Assembly: GCF_002288105.1 (NCBI RefSeq)
Contig: NZ_CP016774.1
Span: 124,001 to 188,000 of the forward strand
DNA length: 64,000 bases
Origin: Candidatus Planktophila versatilis
GTDB lineage: Bacteria > Actinomycetota > Actinomycetes > Nanopelagicales > Nanopelagicaceae
Direction of reading: 5' to 3'
Below, one piece after another: positions 4,839-12,817 of this stretch; the stretch's first letter is position 1, and each line of letters starts with the position of its first letter. The notes under the pieces are model-generated. The model searched no databases. It had not been told where the DNA came from and saw only the letters and a program-made list of their open reading frames with translations. The position numbers and the translations under genes are program-made.

Positions 4839-4911
4839 GCCCCCATAGTCCAATGGCAGAGACAGAGGACTTAAAATCCTTCCAGTATCGGTTCGAGTCC
4901 GATTGGGGGCA
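4839..4911 (+). tRNA. tRNA with anticodon UAA (Leu by codon), short variable loop
   Basis: A 73-nt cloverleaf: 7-bp acceptor stem (4839-4845 with 4904-4910), D-arm with GTC/GAC stem and GG in the loop, anticodon stem 4865-4869/4877-4881 with loop 4870-4876 and anticodon TAA at 4872-4874, T-stem 4887-4891/4899-4903 with TTCGAGT loop. CCA is not encoded. UAA reads leucine UUA, but the variable region is only 5 nt (4882-4886), so the molecule is class I in shape, unlike ordinary bacterial tRNA-Leu. It is the attachment site of the adjacent element, which restores its 3' part. Confidence 0.85.
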
Positions 4912-4912
4912 C
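4864..4912 (+). repeat. attL: left copy of 49-bp attachment repeat
   Basis: Runs from one base before the anticodon stem through the end of the tRNA plus one base. The identical sequence recurs at 12769-12817. On this side it completes the functional tRNA. Confidence 0.92.
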
Positions 4913-4914
4913 AG

Positions 4915-4940
4915 ATTCGTGCGTAAAGCGTTGCACGAAT
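4915..4940 (+). terminator. Hairpin after tRNA, possible terminator
   Basis: An 8-bp perfect stem (ATTCGTGC/GCACGAAT) with a 10-nt loop begins four bases after the tRNA. There is no proper T-run after it, so termination is weakly supported. The right half of this stem (GCACGAAT) also occurs shortly beyond attR (about 12845). Confidence 0.4.
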
Positions 4941-4968
4941 GAAGTTATTTATCAATCACCTGAATTAT

Positions 4969-4992
4969 GTATGCATACACAATGCATACACA
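4969..4992. promoter_or_regulatory. Putative integrase arm-type sites, left end
   Basis: Two adjacent copies of an ATGCATACAC motif, spaced about one helical turn apart. The same motif is present twice at 12671-12693 beside the integrase gene. Paired arm sites at both ends of an element are typical of tyrosine integrases; binding is inferred. Confidence 0.6.
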
Positions 4993-5017
4993 TTGCCTGA
5001 AGGATTTGAAGGCGATA

Positions 5018-5047
5018 ATCAGGTGCTCAGTGCCTTCCGCGCCTGAT
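5018..5047. other. Hairpin in element left end
   Basis: A 9-bp stem (ATCAGGTGC with GCGCCTGAT, one G-T pair) enclosing 12 nt. It lies in the gene-free 4913-5185 stretch, which otherwise holds only the arm sites and the inverted tRNA fragment. Confidence 0.4.
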
Positions 5048-5078
5048 CATCTGCGCTAGAGCAGGGCTCGACCTCCAT

Positions 5079-5104
5079 CTGTCTCTGCCATTGGACTATG
5101 GGGG
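5079..5104 (-). repeat. Inverted copy of the tRNA 5' half
   Basis: These 26 bases are an exact reverse complement of 4840-4865, that is tRNA nucleotides 2-27. The att repeat starts at tRNA nucleotide 26, so this fragment is almost exactly the part of the tRNA not contained in the att repeat. A plus-strand transcript across it would be antisense to the tRNA 5' half. Confidence 0.85.
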
Positions 5105-5185
5105 ACCCGGGGTTGTTAACTTTGAGCGTGCAGGTATCTGTACTACCTCTCTAGAAATATCTCCTAAATCGGATAGTCTAATAAG

Positions 5186-5668
5186 ATGAAGAGATCAGCA
5201 ACTTTAATTTCTATCTTGATTGTGATCTCGACGACAACTCACCTTCATTCTGCGAGTGCTGGAATTTTTGGTCCTAATTGCAAAAAAGTCCATCCGCAAG
5301 GAATCGACTTGAAGAATAAAATTGAGCGCAATTACAAGCTGATGATGATTCAAAAAAATCAAGGCAAAATTCAGAATGCATACACAACTTACAAAATTCT
5401 TAATAGACTCAATAATCAACTTGACGACCTAATGGGAAGTGATAAGAATTATCGGTGCTTCTTGGACGCTGAATACTCTCGGTCCACCTATGCCTGGAGC
5501 ACTGAATTTGCTGGCACGAAATATGGAGGACCTGTCAAGAATCTTTGCGCGCTTTGGGGGTACGGTTGTAAGGCGACGACAACCAAATATGCGAATCCGT
5601 GTGATGAATTCACTCTTCGCACCGATTATGTAGATTGCATCGAGGATCACGCTCGACCAACGGGTTAA
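5186..5668 (+). CDS. Hypothetical secreted protein
   Basis: 160 residues, not recognised. The N-terminus is a good Sec signal peptide: KR at 2-3, hydrophobic LISILIVIS, then a small-residue cleavage region SASAG near 22-26. The mature part has six cysteines, which could pair as disulfides after export. A third copy of the putative integrase arm motif (AATGCATACACAA) lies inside the gene at about 5375-5387. First cargo gene after the left end of the element. Confidence 0.6.
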   Translation: MKRSATLISILIVISTTTHLHSASAGIFGPNCKKVHPQGIDLKNKIERNYKLMMIQKNQGKIQNAYTTYKILNRLNNQLDDLMGSDKNYRCFLDAEYSRSTYAWSTEFAGTKYGGPVKNLCALWGYGCKATTTKYANPCDEFTLRTDYVDCIEDHARPTG

Positions 5669-5682
5669 TCACAGTGGCATCA

Positions 5683-6108
5683 ATGACAAAAGAGATTTCA
5701 ACCTTGTTTAGTGTTTTTTTCACGTCAATTCTGTTTCTCGCTGGATGTAGCAATTCTTCAAGCAATATTGGATCTAAGAATATGGCTTGTGCGTTTGTCG
5801 AGGGATATCTAGACAACAAAGCATTTGCTCTGAAAGACCTTGCTGAAGGTGGGAGTGCTAAAGAAAGTGTTGACTATTTTCTCAGCCCGCTATTGAAGGA
5901 GTTTGATGCTGACCTAGATTCCAAAGTGCTTTTTGGCGATTTTTTTGAAGCGATGATTTCTTGGGGGTCATCTGTTGATTTTGCACACGCGCAGAATAAT
6001 AGTGCGGCGATTACAAATGCAACCGTAGTCCTAGAGTCAGAAATGGATCAATTCGCGATTAGATGTGAAAACTTTGGTTGGAAATTTGAAAAAGACTATC
6101 GCCTATGA
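5683..6108 (+). CDS. Hypothetical lipoprotein
   Basis: About 141 residues, no recognised family. It begins with a lipoprotein signal: MTKEIS, a hydrophobic stretch and lipobox LAGC with the lipidated Cys at about residue 22. The frame is open upstream, but residues before 5683 would spoil the signal; a GTG at 5674 is a minor alternative. It follows the secreted-protein gene by 14 bases on the same strand, so the two may be co-expressed envelope proteins of the element. Confidence 0.6.
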   Translation: MTKEISTLFSVFFTSILFLAGCSNSSSNIGSKNMACAFVEGYLDNKAFALKDLAEGGSAKESVDYFLSPLLKEFDADLDSKVLFGDFFEAMISWGSSVDFAHAQNNSAAITNATVVLESEMDQFAIRCENFGWKFEKDYRL

Positions 6109-6125
6109 TGAAGAATTTTCAGAGA

Positions 6126-6407
6126 TTATTCAATCCAGGAAAGTAGTTCGCTCAGATTCTTAAAACCTTCATCCTCGGTCTCCAATCCTTTCATTAACAG
6201 ATCCCAAGTCCCCATTATCATCTCTAATCCAGCATCTGTTGGGGTTGCTAGACCCTCCGCGACCAAATATGCAAGTGGAACTCCGATGTCATTAAACTGA
6301 CAGAATTCTTCCCATAAGCCCTGATCTGTGTTTGCGTTATGGATTTCTCCAAGTATTTCGCAAATTGATTTGAAGTCGGTCATAATCTGAGAGTAGTTCA
6401 TTTCCAT
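6126..6407 (-). CDS. Hypothetical acidic protein
   Basis: 93 residues, strongly acidic, predicted mostly helical, no recognised domain. Its stop is 17 bases from the end of the lipoprotein gene on the other strand. Small acidic proteins on mobile elements can be antitoxins, immunity proteins or DNA mimics, but nothing here selects between these. Confidence 0.5.
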   Translation of the reverse strand: MEMNYSQIMTDFKSICEILGEIHNANTDQGLWEEFCQFNDIGVPLAYLVAEGLATPTDAGLEMIMGTWDLLMKGLETEDEGFKNLSELLSWIE

Positions 6408-6513
6408 TCAAAGGCAATACCCATTAATTGATGAATCGGGTATTTTTGGGGAGAGACGTACTCAAACGGCAGGAGGGGTAGACGCTAAGCCCAAAAAAAA
6501 CTAGATTTGTTTG

Positions 6514-6960
6514 ATGGGCTTCGAATTTAACGAACCAGCTTGGACCCCTCAGCAGGTTCTAGATTTTTGGGAAGGTGAGCACGGACCTTTATCTGATTCT
6601 TGGCGGAGAAAATTCTTGAGGGATATCTTTGTGTTAGAGATGTGCAATCAACATCCTGAACTCATTCGCGAGGCTATTGAAAAACGAAGAAAAGTTGAGA
6701 GAGCACTCGCGTACATTTATGCCACGCAAGATAGAAATATTCGAGCTGTAGAGAAGCTACTAGATGAACGTCATCCTGATCACGCGATTGGTATTGTCAA
6801 CGCTCATCACGGGAATAGAACAACTGACCCTTTTGATCCCAAGCGAGAAGATTTACTCTTTAAGTGCCAGGTGTGTAATCTGAAGCTATCCCTGCTTCGA
6901 AAATCAGAAGTAGACTTAGAAAACATCTGTAAGAGTTGCTCTGGCGAGGACGATAACTAA
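6514..6960 (+). CDS. Hypothetical protein with C-terminal zinc ribbon
   Basis: About 148 residues, family not recognised. The middle part is helical and basic (EKRRKVERALAYIY), followed by a segment rich in His and Asp. The C-terminus has CQVCN and CKSC, two CxxC pairs about 20 residues apart, which fit a zinc ribbon. A TTG precedes the ATG directly; the ATG is preferred. A GGAGGGG run at about 6472 is too far upstream to be its ribosome binding site, so the start is not firmly fixed. Confidence 0.5.
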   Translation: MGFEFNEPAWTPQQVLDFWEGEHGPLSDSWRRKFLRDIFVLEMCNQHPELIREAIEKRRKVERALAYIYATQDRNIRAVEKLLDERHPDHAIGIVNAHHGNRTTDPFDPKREDLLFKCQVCNLKLSLLRKSEVDLENICKSCSGEDDN

Positions 6961-6984
6961 ACCAGGAAGGGTTATTCTTTGATA

Positions 6985-7068
6985 ATGGAATCAAAAAAGA
7001 CGCTCTTTCGATGGGTTATTGGCTTTGCGATAGGTGCAGTTCTTTACGGAATCTTCTTGAATCTATAA
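6985..7068 (+). CDS. Putative 27-residue membrane microprotein
   Basis: A short ORF starting MESKKTLFRW, then one hydrophobic membrane-spanning stretch and ending FLNL. A purine-rich AGGAAGG lies about 15 bases upstream, longer than ideal spacing. It is followed by three more small membrane-protein ORFs on the same strand. Real expression is uncertain. Confidence 0.35.
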   Translation: MESKKTLFRWVIGFAIGAVLYGIFLNL

Positions 7069-7102
7069 CTTCCAAATTCTAATTTAGAAAAGGTTGTCAA
7101 TT

Positions 7103-7300
7103 ATGGGTGAAGCTGAAAATCGGGCAAGGCGAGAGGCCGAGTTTCTTAACGAGGAACTCCAAAATCAAAAAAACTATTACGAGGAAAGACTTAGACAACA
7201 AAAGGAAGCCTCGAAATTCTATAACCAAGATGGATTTTGGCTTGCTTTTTGGATAATCGGGCCGTTGATTTTACTCGCTTTAGGTTTTAACGTTGGTTAA
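7103..7300 (+). CDS. Hypothetical small membrane protein
   Basis: About 65 residues from the ATG: a charged, glutamate- and glutamine-rich coiled-coil-like N-terminal part (RARREAEFLNEELQNQ) and a single C-terminal membrane segment (FWLAFWIIGPLILLALGF). This layout suits a tail-anchored protein. The ORF also opens at a TTG at 7094; the ATG with an upstream AAAAGG is preferred. Unknown function. Confidence 0.45.
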   Translation: MGEAENRARREAEFLNEELQNQKNYYEERLRQQKEASKFYNQDGFWLAFWIIGPLILLALGFNVG

Positions 7301-7354
7301 CGAATATGGGCCAGACGAGGGTGGAAAAAGGTTAGCAATGAAACGTAAAGTCAT

Positions 7355-7573
7355 ATGAAATCAGAGAATCTAGATGAGTCCCATCAAGTTTATTCATCGG
7401 TGCGAGATTTGCTCGCAATATGGCTTTGGCGCATTTTTCTGATTCCAGTCTGGATTGGCGCAATAGGTTCATTTTTCGTAGGTTCATTGATCAGCAGTTT
7501 AGGAAGTCTTCTTTTCGCGACACTAATTACTGGCTTTATCTATTTGCACACATCTCGAAAGTTCGAGAAATGA
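7355..7573 (+). CDS. Hypothetical two-TM membrane protein
   Basis: 72 residues with two hydrophobic segments (IWLWRIFLIPVWIGAIG and a second after SLISSLGS). Its TGA stop overlaps the ATG of the next ORF in an ATGA, a sign of coupled translation. No family recognised. Confidence 0.5.
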   Translation: MKSENLDESHQVYSSVRDLLAIWLWRIFLIPVWIGAIGSFFVGSLISSLGSLLFATLITGFIYLHTSRKFEK

Positions 7574-7788
7574 CTAGTCAGAAACCGGATGACTATGACC
7601 ACGAAGTGAAATCAGTATTTGAGGGCGTCATCAAAGCGTTTTGGGGTCTTCTTTTTGGTATCGCTTGGGTTGGCGCAGTCTTGAATGCATTGATAAATGG
7701 CGCTTGGTTCGGAATAGTCTTTATGATCCCAGTCACTATTCTTTACTACTTTGTCCTAATCAAGAAGGATGCAATTTCTCGTTGGTAA
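7570..7788 (+). CDS. Hypothetical two-TM membrane protein
   Basis: 72 residues starting MTSQKPDDYDHEVKSVFEG, with two membrane segments (WGLLFGIAWVGAVLNALI and IVFMIPVTILYYFVLI). The frame is open upstream to 7420, but the ATGA overlap with the preceding gene points to 7570. Its length and layout match its neighbour's, so the two may form a hetero-oligomer or derive from duplication. No recognised family. Confidence 0.5.
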   Translation: MTSQKPDDYDHEVKSVFEGVIKAFWGLLFGIAWVGAVLNALINGAWFGIVFMIPVTILYYFVLIKKDAISRW

Positions 7789-7799
7789 TTGTCGTTGCC

Positions 7800-7858
7800 A
7801 AGAGATCGGATTGAACCTAAATTGAATGTACTCTTACTCCAACCCTCTGGATCGCCCA
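7800..7858 (-). pseudogene. Relic of a second zinc-finger/GIY-YIG gene C-terminus
   Basis: On the minus strand this stretch reads GDPEGWSKSTFNLGSIRSL, which aligns with GYSEAWSKSTFESKSIKEL near the end of the GIY-YIG protein at 9012-10562. At DNA level 7825-7842 and 9082-9099 are identical over 18 bases and similar beyond. No start or zinc-finger part remains, and the DUF6994 stop codon abuts it. Confidence 0.65.
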
Positions 7859-8587
7859 TTAACTAGTCTCATTCACTGACCATTCTCTTATGCGTTGGTT
7901 CCGTCGCCTGACGAACTCCAGAGTGCCCATTTTGTATTCGCGGTATTCGGCGGCAGTATCAGGAATTGGAGATCCCGCAAAAGCGTTTTTTGCCGCAGTG
8001 AAGAAATTGACTCTCTCGTAGCTGTTGTCAACGAGGTCCTGTAACAAGAAGAAGTCAACATAGCCTTGAAAGTCTTTGAAAAGGGAAAAGAAAAAGTTGT
8101 TAATGGGAGAACCAAAAGTATTCTCAAGTGGGTGTTCCAGTCTCTGGTAATGCAATCGAATACATTCCAAAGTTAAGTCAAATCTATCTGCAATCTTCCT
8201 ATTGAAACCTCTCGCACCATTTATTGTCATTCCTCCACCCTCTCTTTCCGAGGGAAAAATCAAATAACCACCTATTGTTGAACCCTTATCTCTAAATTCT
8301 TCAAATTCAGCTTGATTTATCTGACTATTTAAATGTGCGATCTTCTTTGTTCCTATATATGAGTTGGAGATGGAGTCGCTACCAAATTTGAGAGTTTGCA
8401 TATTGAATCTATATATGAGCGTTGAATTAATCTCTTCAATCTCAAACCTCTCGCCAATAGGCAATTGTTTTGACCACAGAAAGCGGTGATAGCTTCTCAA
8501 GGTAGGGCTGTAAGCATCGGGATCTTTGCCATTTGAGTCACTTCTAAAGTCAAACGATGTATCAATCTCCAAGTTTTGATGCCTCAA
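7859..8587 (-). CDS. DUF6994 family protein
   Basis: 242 residues resembling what I recall of the DUF6994 family: an N-terminal SFDFRSDSNGKDPDAYSP, then SYHRFLWSKQLP, TINGARGFNRKIADRFDLTL and a YVDFFLLQDLV segment. The family is small and without known function. Here it is the last gene of a minus-strand group that starts with the zinc-finger/GIY-YIG gene. It ends against a relic of a second copy of that nuclease, so it may have been inserted into or recombined with such a locus. Confidence 0.6.
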   Translation of the reverse strand: MRHQNLEIDTSFDFRSDSNGKDPDAYSPTLRSYHRFLWSKQLPIGERFEIEEINSTLIYRFNMQTLKFGSDSISNSYIGTKKIAHLNSQINQAEFEEFRDKGSTIGGYLIFPSEREGGGMTINGARGFNRKIADRFDLTLECIRLHYQRLEHPLENTFGSPINNFFFSLFKDFQGYVDFFLLQDLVDNSYERVNFFTAAKNAFAGSPIPDTAAEYREYKMGTLEFVRRRNQRIREWSVNETS

Positions 8588-8623
8588 ACTCTTCCGTCAA
8601 CCGCATTAATTGGTTAATTGCTG

Positions 8624-9028
8624 TCACCACCAATGTCTGTCACCAGGTTGATTGCGTAAATCTTCCATTGTTATTTCAATCGGCTCTAATGGTGACATTT
8701 CAGCCGGATCGGCCTTAACCTGTTTCGGCTTTTCTCTCATCTTACGACTTTCAAGTAAAGCATCTCTTTCAGCAACGTGTTTCAGAAATTCTTTCCGAAC
8801 TTCCTCGTCAACGGATAAATCCTGAATCACGGTATTTGCTTTGATGTCGTGAAGAACCTCTGACAATTTTCTGAACTTTTTCAATGATGGATATATAAAC
8901 TCAGAGTCATACCAAATAATCCTCGCTACAAGTGGATCACTTGTGAATACTGAATGCCACTCGGGTTCAAGTCGGCCCCATAAAACTTGCCAAGCCGCAA
9001 GTAAATCTTCGCTATCTAGTTTTGCCAT
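8624..9028 (-). CDS. Hypothetical protein overlapping the GIY-YIG gene
   Basis: 134 residues from ATG 9028 (a TTG at 9037 adds three). No recognised family. The N-terminal part is hydrophobic/aromatic and folded-looking (LLAAWQVLWGRLEPEW), and the C-terminal part is charged and probably disordered, with a proline-rich stretch. Its start lies inside the 3' end of the GIY-YIG gene, behind a GAGG at about 9045, which implies coupled translation and a functional link such as partner, inhibitor or immunity protein. Confidence 0.55.
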   Translation of the reverse strand: MAKLDSEDLLAAWQVLWGRLEPEWHSVFTSDPLVARIIWYDSEFIYPSLKKFRKLSEVLHDIKANTVIQDLSVDEEVRKEFLKHVAERDALLESRKMREKPKQVKADPAEMSPLEPIEITMEDLRNQPGDRHWW

Positions 9029-10562
9029 CAGATTCAAATTCCTCAGTTAGTCTCATCAATTCCTTGATTGATTTACTCTCAAATGTACTCTTACTCCAAG
9101 CCTCTGAATAGCCATCAAACTTTCCAGCAATCTTCTCATTGGATAAGTCGGCACCTTTTGCTTTGAGCATTCGAAGAATTGCAGTTTCCCACTCGACAGC
9201 GAGATTTCCGTCAATAGGACCTCGCACCTCAATCAGTTCCCATCCCTTTTTTTGGTGCTTAAATATGCGCTGTTCGGGAGAATTAGAGATGCCAATTTGG
9301 TACATCAACCATTCTGGATGACTTAAAAAATACAAATAGCCAGGAGTGGTTTGGTCATAGCCTGAATTGGCACAATTTGGACAGCCACTGATTCTCGCAC
9401 GGTTGTTTGTTGATGCAGACCAAATATGTTCAGGATTGTTCGAGCATTTCCATTTTTTCTTTGCCATTGAACCTGCTGTGACCGTAGTGGGATCCCATTC
9501 GAAAGCTTCACTTGCAATCTGGGGGTGAGTTGTCTTGAGATCGTTTTCACCTACTAAGATTTTTCTATTCGAACAGAAAGGACAGCCTGCAAGCGAATTG
9601 AGCTGGGCTCGCCAGAGGTGCTTTGGATTCTTCTTGCATTTCCAATTAAGTCGCTTGTTGCTACCTCGCGAATAAAGAGATGGGTCCCAGCCGTTAGCTA
9701 GTTCCGCAATTTCTGGATGAGTTGTTTCTAAATCATTAAAGCCGACAAGTACCTGATGCCCCGAGCAGTACGGACATCCTCGCCCATTAACTCTATTACC
9801 GGGAGTGTCTTTCCAGATATGATCCGCAGAAACCTTGCACTTCCAAGTTTGTAAAACACCACTAAAACTTCGAAATTGTGTTGGATCCCAATTATATGCC
9901 TCCGCAGCAATCTCAGGATGCTTGGTAGCTAAATCGTTTTGACCGGAGAAAACTTTGCGATGAGAACAGTAAGGGCAGCCACCCCCAGCTGTTCTTGCCG
10001 CAATAGTCGCAAACCAAATGTGGGAATTGTCTTTTGGGCAAATCCACTGAACTCTTTTCGAGCTACCCCGTGAGTACCGTGTAGGGTCAAATCCGGATGC
10101 CTGGAGCGCCAGTTCAGGAAACTCTGTTGCAAGGTCGTTCATTCCTGGAACTATTTTTCTGTTTGCACAGTATGGACAACCGGTTCCACTCGTTCGGTGC
10201 TTAATGCTCGCTTCCCAGATGTGCAACGAGTTTTTGGAGCAAATCCAAGAGACTCTTTTGTCACTCTTTGTTGAAAATCGCGACGGATCCCATCCATTGG
10301 CCTCCAAAGCCAACTCAGGGTAAACAGTCAGCAAATCCGTTTTACCTGATATGACTCTGTTTCCTGAACAGTAGGGGCAACCACGACCACTAGTTCTCTT
10401 ATTCGGTGAGGCTTCCCAGGAGTGTGTTTCGTCAGCTGAACATATCCAAGGAAGATTCTTGTTTACCCCAAAAGTAATTAATGAGGGATCCCATCCATCA
10501 GCTTCCTTAGCCAACTCAGGATGCGTTACAGAAAGTGGAAGCTTTTCCTTTTTACTAGGCAC
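9012..10562 (-). CDS. Six-repeat zinc-finger (DUF4379-like) protein with GIY-YIG-like nuclease domain
   Basis: 516 residues. Six tandem units of 64-67 residues (10-76, 77-143, 144-210, 211-277, 278-341, 342-407) each contain HPELA, a WDPS-type motif, W-x-C, a His before x-W, and GCPYC. This gives one C-H-C-C zinc site per unit, for example C41/H47/C62/C65. This matches the DUF4379 'probable zinc-ribbon' family. Residues 408-495 look like a T5orf172-type GIY-YIG nuclease: YLYFL, YQIGIS (421-426), R432, H436 and a Glu in VEWETAIL (E459). The start is a GTG with a TAATAT box just upstream, compatible with a leaderless mRNA. Likely a DNA-binding endonuclease; target and role unknown. Confidence 0.75.
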   Translation of the reverse strand: MPSKKEKLPLSVTHPELAKEADGWDPSLITFGVNKNLPWICSADETHSWEASPNKRTSGRGCPYCSGNRVISGKTDLLTVYPELALEANGWDPSRFSTKSDKRVSWICSKNSLHIWEASIKHRTSGTGCPYCANRKIVPGMNDLATEFPELALQASGFDPTRYSRGSSKRVQWICPKDNSHIWFATIAARTAGGGCPYCSHRKVFSGQNDLATKHPEIAAEAYNWDPTQFRSFSGVLQTWKCKVSADHIWKDTPGNRVNGRGCPYCSGHQVLVGFNDLETTHPEIAELANGWDPSLYSRGSNKRLNWKCKKNPKHLWRAQLNSLAGCPFCSNRKILVGENDLKTTHPQIASEAFEWDPTTVTAGSMAKKKWKCSNNPEHIWSASTNNRARISGCPNCANSGYDQTTPGYLYFLSHPEWLMYQIGISNSPEQRIFKHQKKGWELIEVRGPIDGNLAVEWETAILRMLKAKGADLSNEKIAGKFDGYSEAWSKSTFESKSIKELMRLTEEFESDGKTR

Positions 10563-10579
10563 CGCATAAGGATATTAGG

Positions 10580-10809
10580 CACGACTGACGTCGTGAAGGA
10601 GTGGGACTGCATCGAGTGCGAACGCTAGTGAGCCAACTGTTCGGGTGCTCCTTTCAGAGCCCCCTCATATCAACTGTCAGTCAGGCGACCTCTCGGTCGC
10701 ACTCCGATGCAGCCCTTTGTAGACCGAATCTTAAATCGTCGGTCTCCTACAGGTACTGGAACTAAGTTCCAATAGAGACACTTCCTCCTTGGTAATTAAC
10801 CCGAAGGGT
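10580..10809. other. Hairpin-rich non-coding segment (RNA or origin candidate)
   Basis: No ORF fits. Stems seen: 10580-10585/10590-10595 (6 bp, perfect); 10608-10621/10697-10711 (14 bp, one bulge) around an inner GGG(T)GCTC/GAGCCCC hairpin; 10685-10690/10695-10700 (6 bp), which competes with the 14-bp stem; 10718-10727/10739-10751 (10 bp with a 3-nt bulge); 10757-10762/10766-10771 (6 bp); 10799-10802/10806-10809. It lies between the GIY-YIG gene and the winged-helix gene, both on the minus strand. It may be a structured RNA or leader, or an origin next to an initiator gene. Confidence 0.5.
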
Positions 10810-11306
10810 CACTGATTCCGGCCCTTTTGTTCACCCCTTAATGAGTAAACAAAACCGCCGCAGCCCCAGTGCACCTTGCCAAGTGGACTAGAGGCGTATT
10901 CGCCACGACTCAGTTTCTTCGCGCAGGCAAAGCACCTTGCCACGATTTTTTTGTAAGGTTGTGCAACTTCATTCATTCGGCCCGAGTCCCAGCAAGCAAA
11001 CTGAATAAAGTACTTGATCCTTGCTTGTACTCCATTGGGGTACTTCACGGACTTGATGAATCCATATTCGTGAAGAACTTTCAATCCTTCACTCACCGAA
11101 CTTCTCCCCAACCCAGCCGCTTTCGCGATAGTTGTATAGCTTGGGAATACGGCGTTGTTGTTCTTGCCCATATATGAGACAAGTGCCAACAGCACCTTTT
11201 GTGCGTTGTATTGTTTGGCCCTTCCTAATACCTGATAAGCAGGTACTGGGAACGGTGTGTAGAGACTTCCTTTTGGTAGATGGAAGTTTCCATTTTCATT
11301 ATGCAT
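10809..11306 (-). CDS. Winged-helix zinc protein, possible replication initiator or regulator
   Basis: 165 residues. Residues 35-92 form a clear winged helix-turn-helix of the HTH_36 kind (AQKVLLALVSYM, FPSYTTIAKAAGLGRSSVSEG, LHEYGFI). The C-terminal part has CFAC (125-128) and HWGC (146-149), a probable zinc site. Proteins of this layout are common as replication initiators or regulators on phages and integrative plasmids. It sits between the integrase and the hairpin-rich segment, which fits either role; no direct evidence separates them. Confidence 0.6.
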   Translation of the reverse strand: MHNENGNFHLPKGSLYTPFPVPAYQVLGRAKQYNAQKVLLALVSYMGKNNNAVFPSYTTIAKAAGLGRSSVSEGLKVLHEYGFIKSVKYPNGVQARIKYFIQFACWDSGRMNEVAQPYKKIVARCFACAKKLSRGEYASSPLGKVHWGCGGFVYSLRGEQKGRNQ

Positions 11307-11442
11307 CGGTTACTCGTTTCTGTGTTTCCACATTAATCACAAGAACCCCAGCCTCGCAGAAGAAAATATATGTCTGATTTCGGAAACGACTCGGATAGCC
11401 ACGCATTCCCAAAATGAGATAAAAAGAACAAAAAAAGTTACT

Positions 11443-11471
11443 AAAAAAATGGGAAATTATTACCACTTCCC
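11443..11471 (-). terminator. Terminator of the integrase gene
   Basis: On the minus strand, 13 bases after the integrase stop, GGGAA pairs with TTCCC across an 11-nt loop, followed by a run of seven T (read from 11449 down). The rest of the gap to the winged-helix gene (11307-11442) is AT-rich with no feature seen. Confidence 0.7.
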
Positions 11472-11483
11472 GCCTTGAAATAC

Positions 11484-12611
11484 TCAGATTGAAAATAGGG
11501 CCCTATTCATCAAATTTGCTGCTTCAACTTGCGGTTTGAGAGCACTATGGACGTATAACTTTGATGTGATGGCGCTCGAAGAGTGCCCTAAAGCCCTGCT
11601 AATGACTTCTATGCCCACTCCCTGGCCATACATAAGGGTTGCCGCAGTATGGCGTGCATCGTGCAGCCTTCTTGGCTTGATTCCACAGAGCCTGAGTGTC
11701 CGCTTCCAATCATTGAAATCAATAGTGGATTGCTTGGGAGTTCCATCAGTCGCAGGAAACACCAAGTCATTTTCCTGCCATTGGCTACTGCATCCAGAGC
11801 GCATCTCATCTACTAGCTTCTTGTGAAATTTCAGGGACTCAACGGATCCTGAAGTCAGCACCAGCAAGCGCCTAGAGCGCTCAGTCTTCAAACCTGTTAG
11901 CTGTCGCTTCCCATCGATCATCTGAATCTGATTGCGAACTTCAAGTACTCCATTTACTAAATCAACATCCTGCCAGCGAAGCCCCAAAGCTTCGCCCTGC
12001 CTTAAACCACAGAGAAGTGCAATGTGAAGCCGAGCAGACATATAAGTCTCCTTGTATGTCTCTAGAAGTCGTTTCACCTCCTCAATAGTCAGAGGCTCGA
12101 TCTCTCGAGTCTTATTTACCGGAATCCGCACTTTCTTTACTGGATTACTTGGTATGTACTCATTGTTCTCAGCTTCACCAAGTGCCACTGATAAGAGTGC
12201 TCGAGCTTGTTGTTGAGATCGAGGGCTCTGTCCAGCCTCACGCATCGTTGTAAGTACAAATTGAATATTGCTAGGAACTATCTTGCGTAATGGTATCTGG
12301 CCGATTACCGGAACGATGTGATGGGTAGCTAGTGCTCGGTATCTCTTCCACGTTGAGTGAGCAATCTGATGCTTATGCTCTTCCTCTAACCACGTAAAGA
12401 GATAAGTACCGAGGGCAATCTTTGATTGTGGGAGAGCGTTCTTATTCCCCAGTAGCTTAGGGAGTTTTTCAATCTTCTCCTTGGCGCGTTGGCGAGAGAG
12501 CTGCGACGTCGGCGCCATCGCGGTAACAGATTGATCACCTCTGCGAATAACAGTTCTATATGACCTACCAACCTTGTACGTATAACCTTGACCATTTGCT
12601 TTGCGAGACAT
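11484..12611 (-). CDS. int: Tyrosine site-specific integrase
   Basis: 375 residues. It has an N-terminal AP2-like arm-binding part, a SAM-like core-binding domain (about 64-150) and a catalytic domain with the full set of active residues: R204 in CGLRQGEALGLRW, H317 and R320 in RRLHDARH, H343 in LGHSSSAITS, and the nucleophile Y353. It catalyses integration at, and with a partner excision from, the tRNA gene. The frame is open to 12689, but an AAGGA site precedes the ATG at 12611 and the longer start would overlap the arm sites. The gene lies at the attR end. Confidence 0.9.
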   Translation of the reverse strand: MSRKANGQGYTYKVGRSYRTVIRRGDQSVTAMAPTSQLSRQRAKEKIEKLPKLLGNKNALPQSKIALGTYLFTWLEEEHKHQIAHSTWKRYRALATHHIVPVIGQIPLRKIVPSNIQFVLTTMREAGQSPRSQQQARALLSVALGEAENNEYIPSNPVKKVRIPVNKTREIEPLTIEEVKRLLETYKETYMSARLHIALLCGLRQGEALGLRWQDVDLVNGVLEVRNQIQMIDGKRQLTGLKTERSRRLLVLTSGSVESLKFHKKLVDEMRSGCSSQWQENDLVFPATDGTPKQSTIDFNDWKRTLRLCGIKPRRLHDARHTAATLMYGQGVGIEVISRALGHSSSAITSKLYVHSALKPQVEAANLMNRALFSI

Positions 12612-12670
12612 TACACATTCCTTAGAACCACCACTTGCCGTATGCAAGTGTGGAACCGGTGCCATTTCAG

Positions 12671-12693
12671 AATGCATACATAAATGCATACAC
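12671..12693. promoter_or_regulatory. Putative integrase arm-type sites, right end
   Basis: Two copies of AATGCATACA about 12 bp apart, matching the pair at 4969-4992. They lie just upstream of the integrase gene, so bound integrase could also repress its own promoter. A 10-bp hairpin with one bulge follows at 12714-12741, between these sites and attR. Confidence 0.6.
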
Positions 12694-12768
12694 TCCTACA
12701 AGTTTCACAGAATCCAGATTCGATTCACGCTCGAAATCTGGTAATTCTGGAAACCTGGAAGTCCTTTA

Positions 12769-12817
12769 AGAGGACTTAAAATCCTTCCAGTATCGGTTCG
12801 AGTCCGATTGGGGGCAC
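12769..12817 (+). repeat. attR: right copy of 49-bp attachment repeat
   Basis: Identical to 4864-4912, a tRNA 3' fragment without its 5' half and so not a functional tRNA. It is preceded by a 7-bp inverted repeat (AAGTCCT/AGGACTT, 12759-12777) that overlaps its start and may be a core integrase site. Confidence 0.92.

Follow-up and report, generated by a model that had tools for sequence, protein, structure and literature searches.

A DUF4379 zinc-finger array joined to a GIY-YIG-like nuclease domain recurs on small integrative elements in the genus of Candidatus Planktophila versatilis

Results

The nuclease gene and its domains

The window, i.e., the whole stretch of 64,000 nt from Candidatus Planktophila versatilis analysed here, contains at 9012..10562 (-) a gene with a GTG start that encodes 516 aa, characterized via its ORF, Pfam, PHROG and a structural model. 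Residues 1-400 (9363..10562, -) comprise six DUF4379 zinc-finger units, identified by Pfam and ligand alignment, and residues 408-495 (9078..9341, -) form a GIY-YIG-like nuclease domain. DUF4379 (PF14311) matches the protein six times (E 6.9e-69; 228.4 bits vs. a cut-off of 24.5) with a unit spacing of 192-201 nt, i.e., 64-67 residues. The C-H-C-C ligands are unchanged in all 101 units of 16 family proteins (window protein included), which carry 4-9 units each. The six tandem C-H-C-C units described in the initial annotation are thus real. The PHROG family phrog_681 ('endonuclease') spans repeats and nuclease (residues 239-491, E 1.4e-44). Since the nuclease domain alone, when used as query, has relatives in 17/135 genomes of the genus (best E outside the own genome 8e-54), the ORF is no chance product, and the array plus nuclease architecture proposed from the sequence is borne out.

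Whether the array reads DNA in a modular way, as the initial annotation proposed, is a different matter. Judged from the sequences, unit-by-unit reading would be plausible but is unproven, and the variability of the units is also compatible with ordinary surface variation. Hypervariable unit positions were rejected as proof of a DNA code because alternating exposed strand positions produce the same pattern. In structural comparison (Foldseek E 1.9e-3, Z up to 8.8), the zinc unit resembles mt-SAF33, an assembly factor of the trypanosome mitoribosome whose database entry names it a DUF4379 protein, and the solved DUF4379-like folds that we found are mitoribosomal proteins only. The unit fold is therefore by itself no proof of DNA binding, and binding of RNA or protein by the array is possible.

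The C-terminal 116 residues are 48-71% identical to genus relatives. YLYFL, YQIGIS, R432, H436 and E459 all lie where the initial annotation had placed them. Among 16 aligned sequences, Y411 (the Tyr of YLYFL), R432, H436 and E459 are invariant, such that the catalytic Tyr (GIY), Arg and Glu of the GIY-YIG superfamily are present (Y411, R432, E459). The second motif of these sequences reads QIG in place of YIG, with an invariant Q (QLG in one member). The window protein has a Y one residue before QIG, where relatives show Y/F/M/L/H. A one-residue shift of the second motif is usual for T5orf172 domains.

An AlphaFold2 model of the last DUF4379 unit plus C-terminus, computed with 16 sequences, reaches a mean pLDDT of 84 (core about 90) and shows the GIY-YIG order of elements (model residues: strand 88-95, strand 100-106, helix 109-117, strand 122-130, helix 132-148). 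Structural alignment of model residues 84-191 yields Slx1 (Z 5.3), HIGLE (Z 5.1) and UPF0213 (Z 3.6); these Z values are modest, and the top rows for the nuclease domain are all GIY-YIG proteins, ahead of unrelated ones. Such proteins surfaced only in this second-look alignment: the Foldseek search against the PDB returned no GIY-YIG protein among the matches listed, and the nuclease-domain profile had no match among the sequences of solved structures. Weak Pfam matches to GIY-YIG (9/10 members, best E 1.6e-4) and T5orf172 (7/10, best E 1.3e-4) occur across the family, while the window domain itself stays below both cut-offs, i.e., 15.0 bits vs. 22.6 for GIY-YIG and 13.3 bits vs. 20 for T5orf172 (PF10544, E 0.12). 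We thus call the domain T5orf172-like only. Taken with the confident model and the alignments to Slx1, HIGLE and UPF0213, the previously suggested GIY-YIG-like nuclease fold is supported as a prediction; R432 and E459 would, given this fold, be expected in one pocket.

These observations bear on the explanation in which the array is an RNA or protein binder and the GIY-YIG-like domain inactive. The mitoribosomal proteins as nearest solved folds and the degenerate second motif (QIG) speak for it. Yet the catalytic Y, R, H and E are invariant and phage relatives insert in the manner of homing endonucleases (see below), which makes this explanation highly improbable.

The integrated element

The gene is part of a mobile element (4864..12817) bounded by a 49-bp perfect direct repeat. 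One att repeat is the 3' part (4864-4912) of the tRNA-Leu(TAA) gene used as integration site (4839..4912, +; ARAGORN), and the other, found by repeat search, is a second tRNA-Leu 3' end (12769..12817, +). A same-species genome provides the empty site: there, the element flanks are contiguous and their overlap is exactly the 49 bp. It follows that 7,905 bp were inserted, counted between the att repeat starts.

Beside the nuclease gene, the element encodes a tyrosine integrase that adjoins the att repeat (11484..12689, -; PF00589 E 3.5e-25), a winged-helix HTH_36 protein that is replication-initiator-like (10809..11306, -; PF13730 E 1.5e-11; phrog_270), a 134-aa protein, a DUF6994 gene regarded as cargo (7859..8587, -; PF22507 E 1.1e-77) and small proteins. 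The genome holds three PF00589 genes including the element's integrase; the other two are presumably XerC/XerD. None of four proteins (nuclease, 134-aa protein, DUF6994, ORF 6511-6960) matches a PADLOC family, and no recognised defence genes are found among the nuclease's neighbours in the element.

Directly past DUF6994, a 32-nt stretch (7825..7856, -; encoding GDPEGWSKST) is 91% identical to 9082-9113. It is a 3'-end remnant of a nuclease gene, left by an earlier copy or by recombination in this segment. At 5078-5104, within the element and 211 nt downstream, a 27-bp stretch repeats the 5' part of the tRNA-Leu gene (4840-4866) exactly and in inverted orientation. Furthermore, both tRNA-Leu elements encode at their tRNA end a small secreted protein and, after it, one resembling a lipoprotein (5186-6108, +, in the window and 2094-2919, +, in locus L034), a likeness judged by eye and with no BLAST match.

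The 134-aa gene (8624..9028, -) starts within the nuclease gene with a 17-nt overlap and was initially annotated as a co-translated partner or inhibitor. We find no conserved link. The gene is absent beside the nuclease paralogue upstream of prfB in the same genome (71% identical nuclease) and beside all other nuclease relatives with readable flanks. The proposed partnership is thus not supported. Relatives of the 134-aa protein within the genus are limited to one G007 protein, whose surroundings (3 kb read) contain no nuclease gene, and, via that protein, to ORF 6511-6960. The latter (6511..6960, +) encodes a small Zn-ribbon protein of the same element whose N-terminal region is common to the 134-aa protein family. 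No relative was found in phages, plasmids or viral contigs, and the protein's structural model is of low confidence (pLDDT 63). We rejected the role of nuclease inhibitor given that its relatives are only distant and away from nucleases; the gene is best seen as element cargo.

Promoter palindrome and structured upstream region

The palindrome CACGACGTCAGTCGTG lies in the promoter region of the nuclease gene (10580..10595), 17 nt upstream of its GTG start. It has two sites in the genome, each preceding a nuclease gene of this family, and four sites across 135 genomes, all upstream of such genes. Both nuclease genes of the genome have about 117 bp in common at 90% identity, covering promoter and first codons and including CACGACGTCAGTCGTG. 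A search of viral contigs for palindrome plus promoter found none, using a narrow pattern that required a C before AATAT, which is absent from the window copy. The nuclease promoter is probably controlled at this site. The HTH gene occurs in 3/135 genomes, and these are the same three that carry the palindrome; from this co-occurrence we infer that the HTH protein may be its binder, although common descent of the elements is another possible cause of the linkage.

Between the HTH and nuclease genes lies a structured intergenic region 5' of the nuclease gene (10563..10808, -; fold of 10540-10812 with an MFE of -104.5 kcal/mol, z -4.7). Part of it, including a palindromic GGAACTTAGTTCC, recurs in the G155 element, such that two sequences are well alignable. 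Possible roles of the region are an origin or a regulatory RNA. Group I/II introns and other known RNAs were discarded as candidates, as there is no Rfam match; likewise, Rfam revealed no known RNA around the nuclease gene of phage JD001.

These features raise the possibility that the nuclease serves the element's own cycle, either by nicking 10563-10808 for replication or excision or by acting at the palindrome as a repressor of its own promoter, in the manner of I-TevI. The strong predicted fold immediately upstream, the replication-initiator-like HTH protein and the restriction of the palindrome to these nuclease genes would agree with such a role. However, the second nuclease copy of the genome keeps the palindrome while structured region and integrase are missing, the HTH protein is by co-occurrence the better candidate for the palindrome, and palindrome as well as HTH homologue are missing from other elements. 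We therefore deem a role in the element's own cycle quite improbable.

Further elements and the second copy

Another five loci in the genus, 6.3-7.5 kb long and bounded by repeats, each contain an integrase together with an array nuclease. Two lie at tRNA-Arg (6,320 and 7,449 bp), one at tRNA-Leu (7,354 bp) and one at tRNA-Val (7,454 bp, with a pair of nuclease genes); the fifth measures 6,561 bp and has shorter repeats. Besides integrase and nuclease, we found no genes common to the elements, except for the HTH gene in 2 of the 5. In total, six elements with different integrases each carry a nuclease copy, which is open in 5/6 (one stop in the G134 match). Within the genus, the nuclease is hence an accessory gene that appears repeatedly on integrase-driven elements of 6-8 kb. 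In the tRNA-Val element, the two array nuclease genes form a tandem pair with overlapping ends (L036 2147-5204, -). A protein of the G134 element weakly matches the filamentous-phage replication protein G2P (L035 3490-4785, +; E 0.0066), hinting at a possible rolling-circle replication of that element.

The paralogue in the same genome (copy 2) is located upstream of prfB, where a same-species genome has other DNA. Since no integrase is found near copy 2, the nuclease gene is independent of the element. At the respective place (L009 5077-7172), the same-species locus L051 has about 5 kb of tad/Flp-pilus-like genes; the reading of L051 3809-8762 (TadA-like ATPase, TadB/C-like, pilin-like) was done by eye.

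Solo copy 2, the tandem pair and the 3' remnant at 7825-7856, as well as the phage relatives with gene-splitting insertions described below, would suit a plain selfish homing endonuclease that moves alone between element and chromosome sites, hitch-hikes on elements and gives no benefit. On the other hand, all six elements retain a copy despite their different integrases, open in all but one, and in three elements the nuclease is accompanied by palindrome and HTH gene. Plain selfish homing thus has a real but minor chance of being correct.

Phage relatives

Relatives are found in 82 phage and 74 plasmid records. In the Klebsiella phages JD001 and BUCT791, the array/GIY-YIG gene sits between two DNA polymerase pieces. 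Using an intact polymerase from a related phage, we mapped the split in four phages after residue 504 of 704 (pieces 1-504 and 509/510-704). The same polymerase site holds a T5orf172 nuclease in FZ14 and an HNH nuclease in BUCT_49532, i.e., three nuclease types occur in the gap. At least 80% of a joined junction query is covered by 682 records, and among the matches listed most are in one piece. Such a polymerase split at a shared codon is, for the phage relatives, the classic footprint of a homing endonuclease as far as sequence comparison can tell. This homing-type insertion is observed in relatives and not for the window gene; in contrast to the phages, a nuclease inside a protein-coding gene is not seen in these bacteria.

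Discussion

The initial annotation considered the locus an undescribed defence, homing or competition module. This does not hold for the architecture: a 2023 paper had already described phage homing endonucleases of the T5orf172 type that carry CapR/DUF723/DUF4379 fingers in repeats (PMC10448857). Fingers of the CapR, DUF723 or DUF4379 type, often repeated, are present in most T5orf172 homing endonucleases; finger repeats recombine and domains are swapped among these enzymes (PMC10448857). An array akin to DUF4379 is also known with a Vsr-like nuclease from phage group II introns (PMC12350094). What is new is the setting, i.e., a small tRNA-inserted element of a freshwater actinobacterium that recurs in the genus. 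Homing is favoured by the phage insertions and the published families (PMC10448857), while defence is disfavoured by the lack of a PADLOC match and of defence neighbours.

The published phage homing endonucleases and the window protein agree in having a presumed DNA-binding finger array at one end and a GIY-YIG-type nuclease at the other, in variable unit numbers, in exchanged units and nuclease domains and in links to tRNA-integrated satellites (PMC10448857). Here, in contrast, the gene is chromosomal and found repeatedly on integrative elements (6-8 kb) of a freshwater actinobacterium, with 4-9 DUF4379 units, a promoter palindrome in a subset and a domain below Pfam cut-offs. The group II intron enzymes also place repeats (three to five of about 60 aa, CapR/DUF4379/DUF723-like) before the nuclease but are intron-borne and of EDxHD/Vsr fold (PMC12350094). 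Odn of phage ICP1 resembles the window protein in its T5orf172-type nuclease with exchangeable DNA-binding domain aimed at a mobile element, and differs in that it is phage-encoded rather than element-encoded and has a RepA_N domain and no finger array (PMC8263062). CapR of PLE satellites is likewise a zinc-finger protein related to such arrays on a small integrative element, but a repressor without nuclease domain (PMC10448857).

We consider it likely that the gene encodes a homing-derived, array-directed DNA endonuclease kept by small integrative elements for spread or competition. The six N-terminal treble-clef zinc fingers would position the protein by binding an extended DNA target, and the GIY-YIG-like domain at the C-terminus would cut close to the array-bound site. 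Cleavage of competitor DNA, i.e., of a rival element, a phage or the element-free allele, would let the element spread or protect it. Expression would be controlled at the promoter palindrome, most likely via the element's HTH protein.

A dedicated anti-phage nuclease, whose array reads a conserved phage site such that the element shields its host as satellite effectors do, appears unlikely. It could draw on the HEG-derived domains used in phage-satellite conflict, i.e., the CapR repressor of PLE and Odn of ICP1 (PMC10448857, PMC8263062), on the small tRNA-integrated carriers and on arrays whose ends are conserved and whose middle parts have diverged. But PADLOC and the element's gene neighbourhood, as noted above, lend it no support, and its phage target is still only hypothetical. 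We put forward, as a rather speculative extension of the preferred reading, that the loci may represent a so far undescribed group of 6-8 kb tRNA-integrating elements in freshwater actinobacteria of the Planktophila type, for which the array nuclease with its swappable units might be the signature weapon against phages or rivals, in some cases with a dedicated HTH protein and operator.

Finger-array homing endonucleases were known mainly from phages, and here a gene of this architecture is common to small elements in streamlined freshwater bacteria. As members of this one nuclease family occur on elements, alone and in phages, these three situations can be cleanly compared. If the units read DNA singly, natural arrays with constant ends and their targets would make the recognition rule derivable by comparison.

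The four palindrome-bearing genes are instructive in this regard: their N-terminal 23 residues show 78-96% identity, the arrays 44-50% and the nuclease domains 50-79%. The arrays are out of register past the first unit, and units are no closer within one protein than between proteins (likeness 0.461 vs. 0.455). This fits recognition units being exchanged while the ends stay constant, as suggested by the aligned sequences, with the code itself unproven. One relative has CapR-like units plus one DUF4379 unit ahead of the same nuclease. CapR-like zinc-unit arrays with a GIY-YIG-like domain are also observed in other genomes of the genus (loci L043, L044, L045, L025-L028 and L031).
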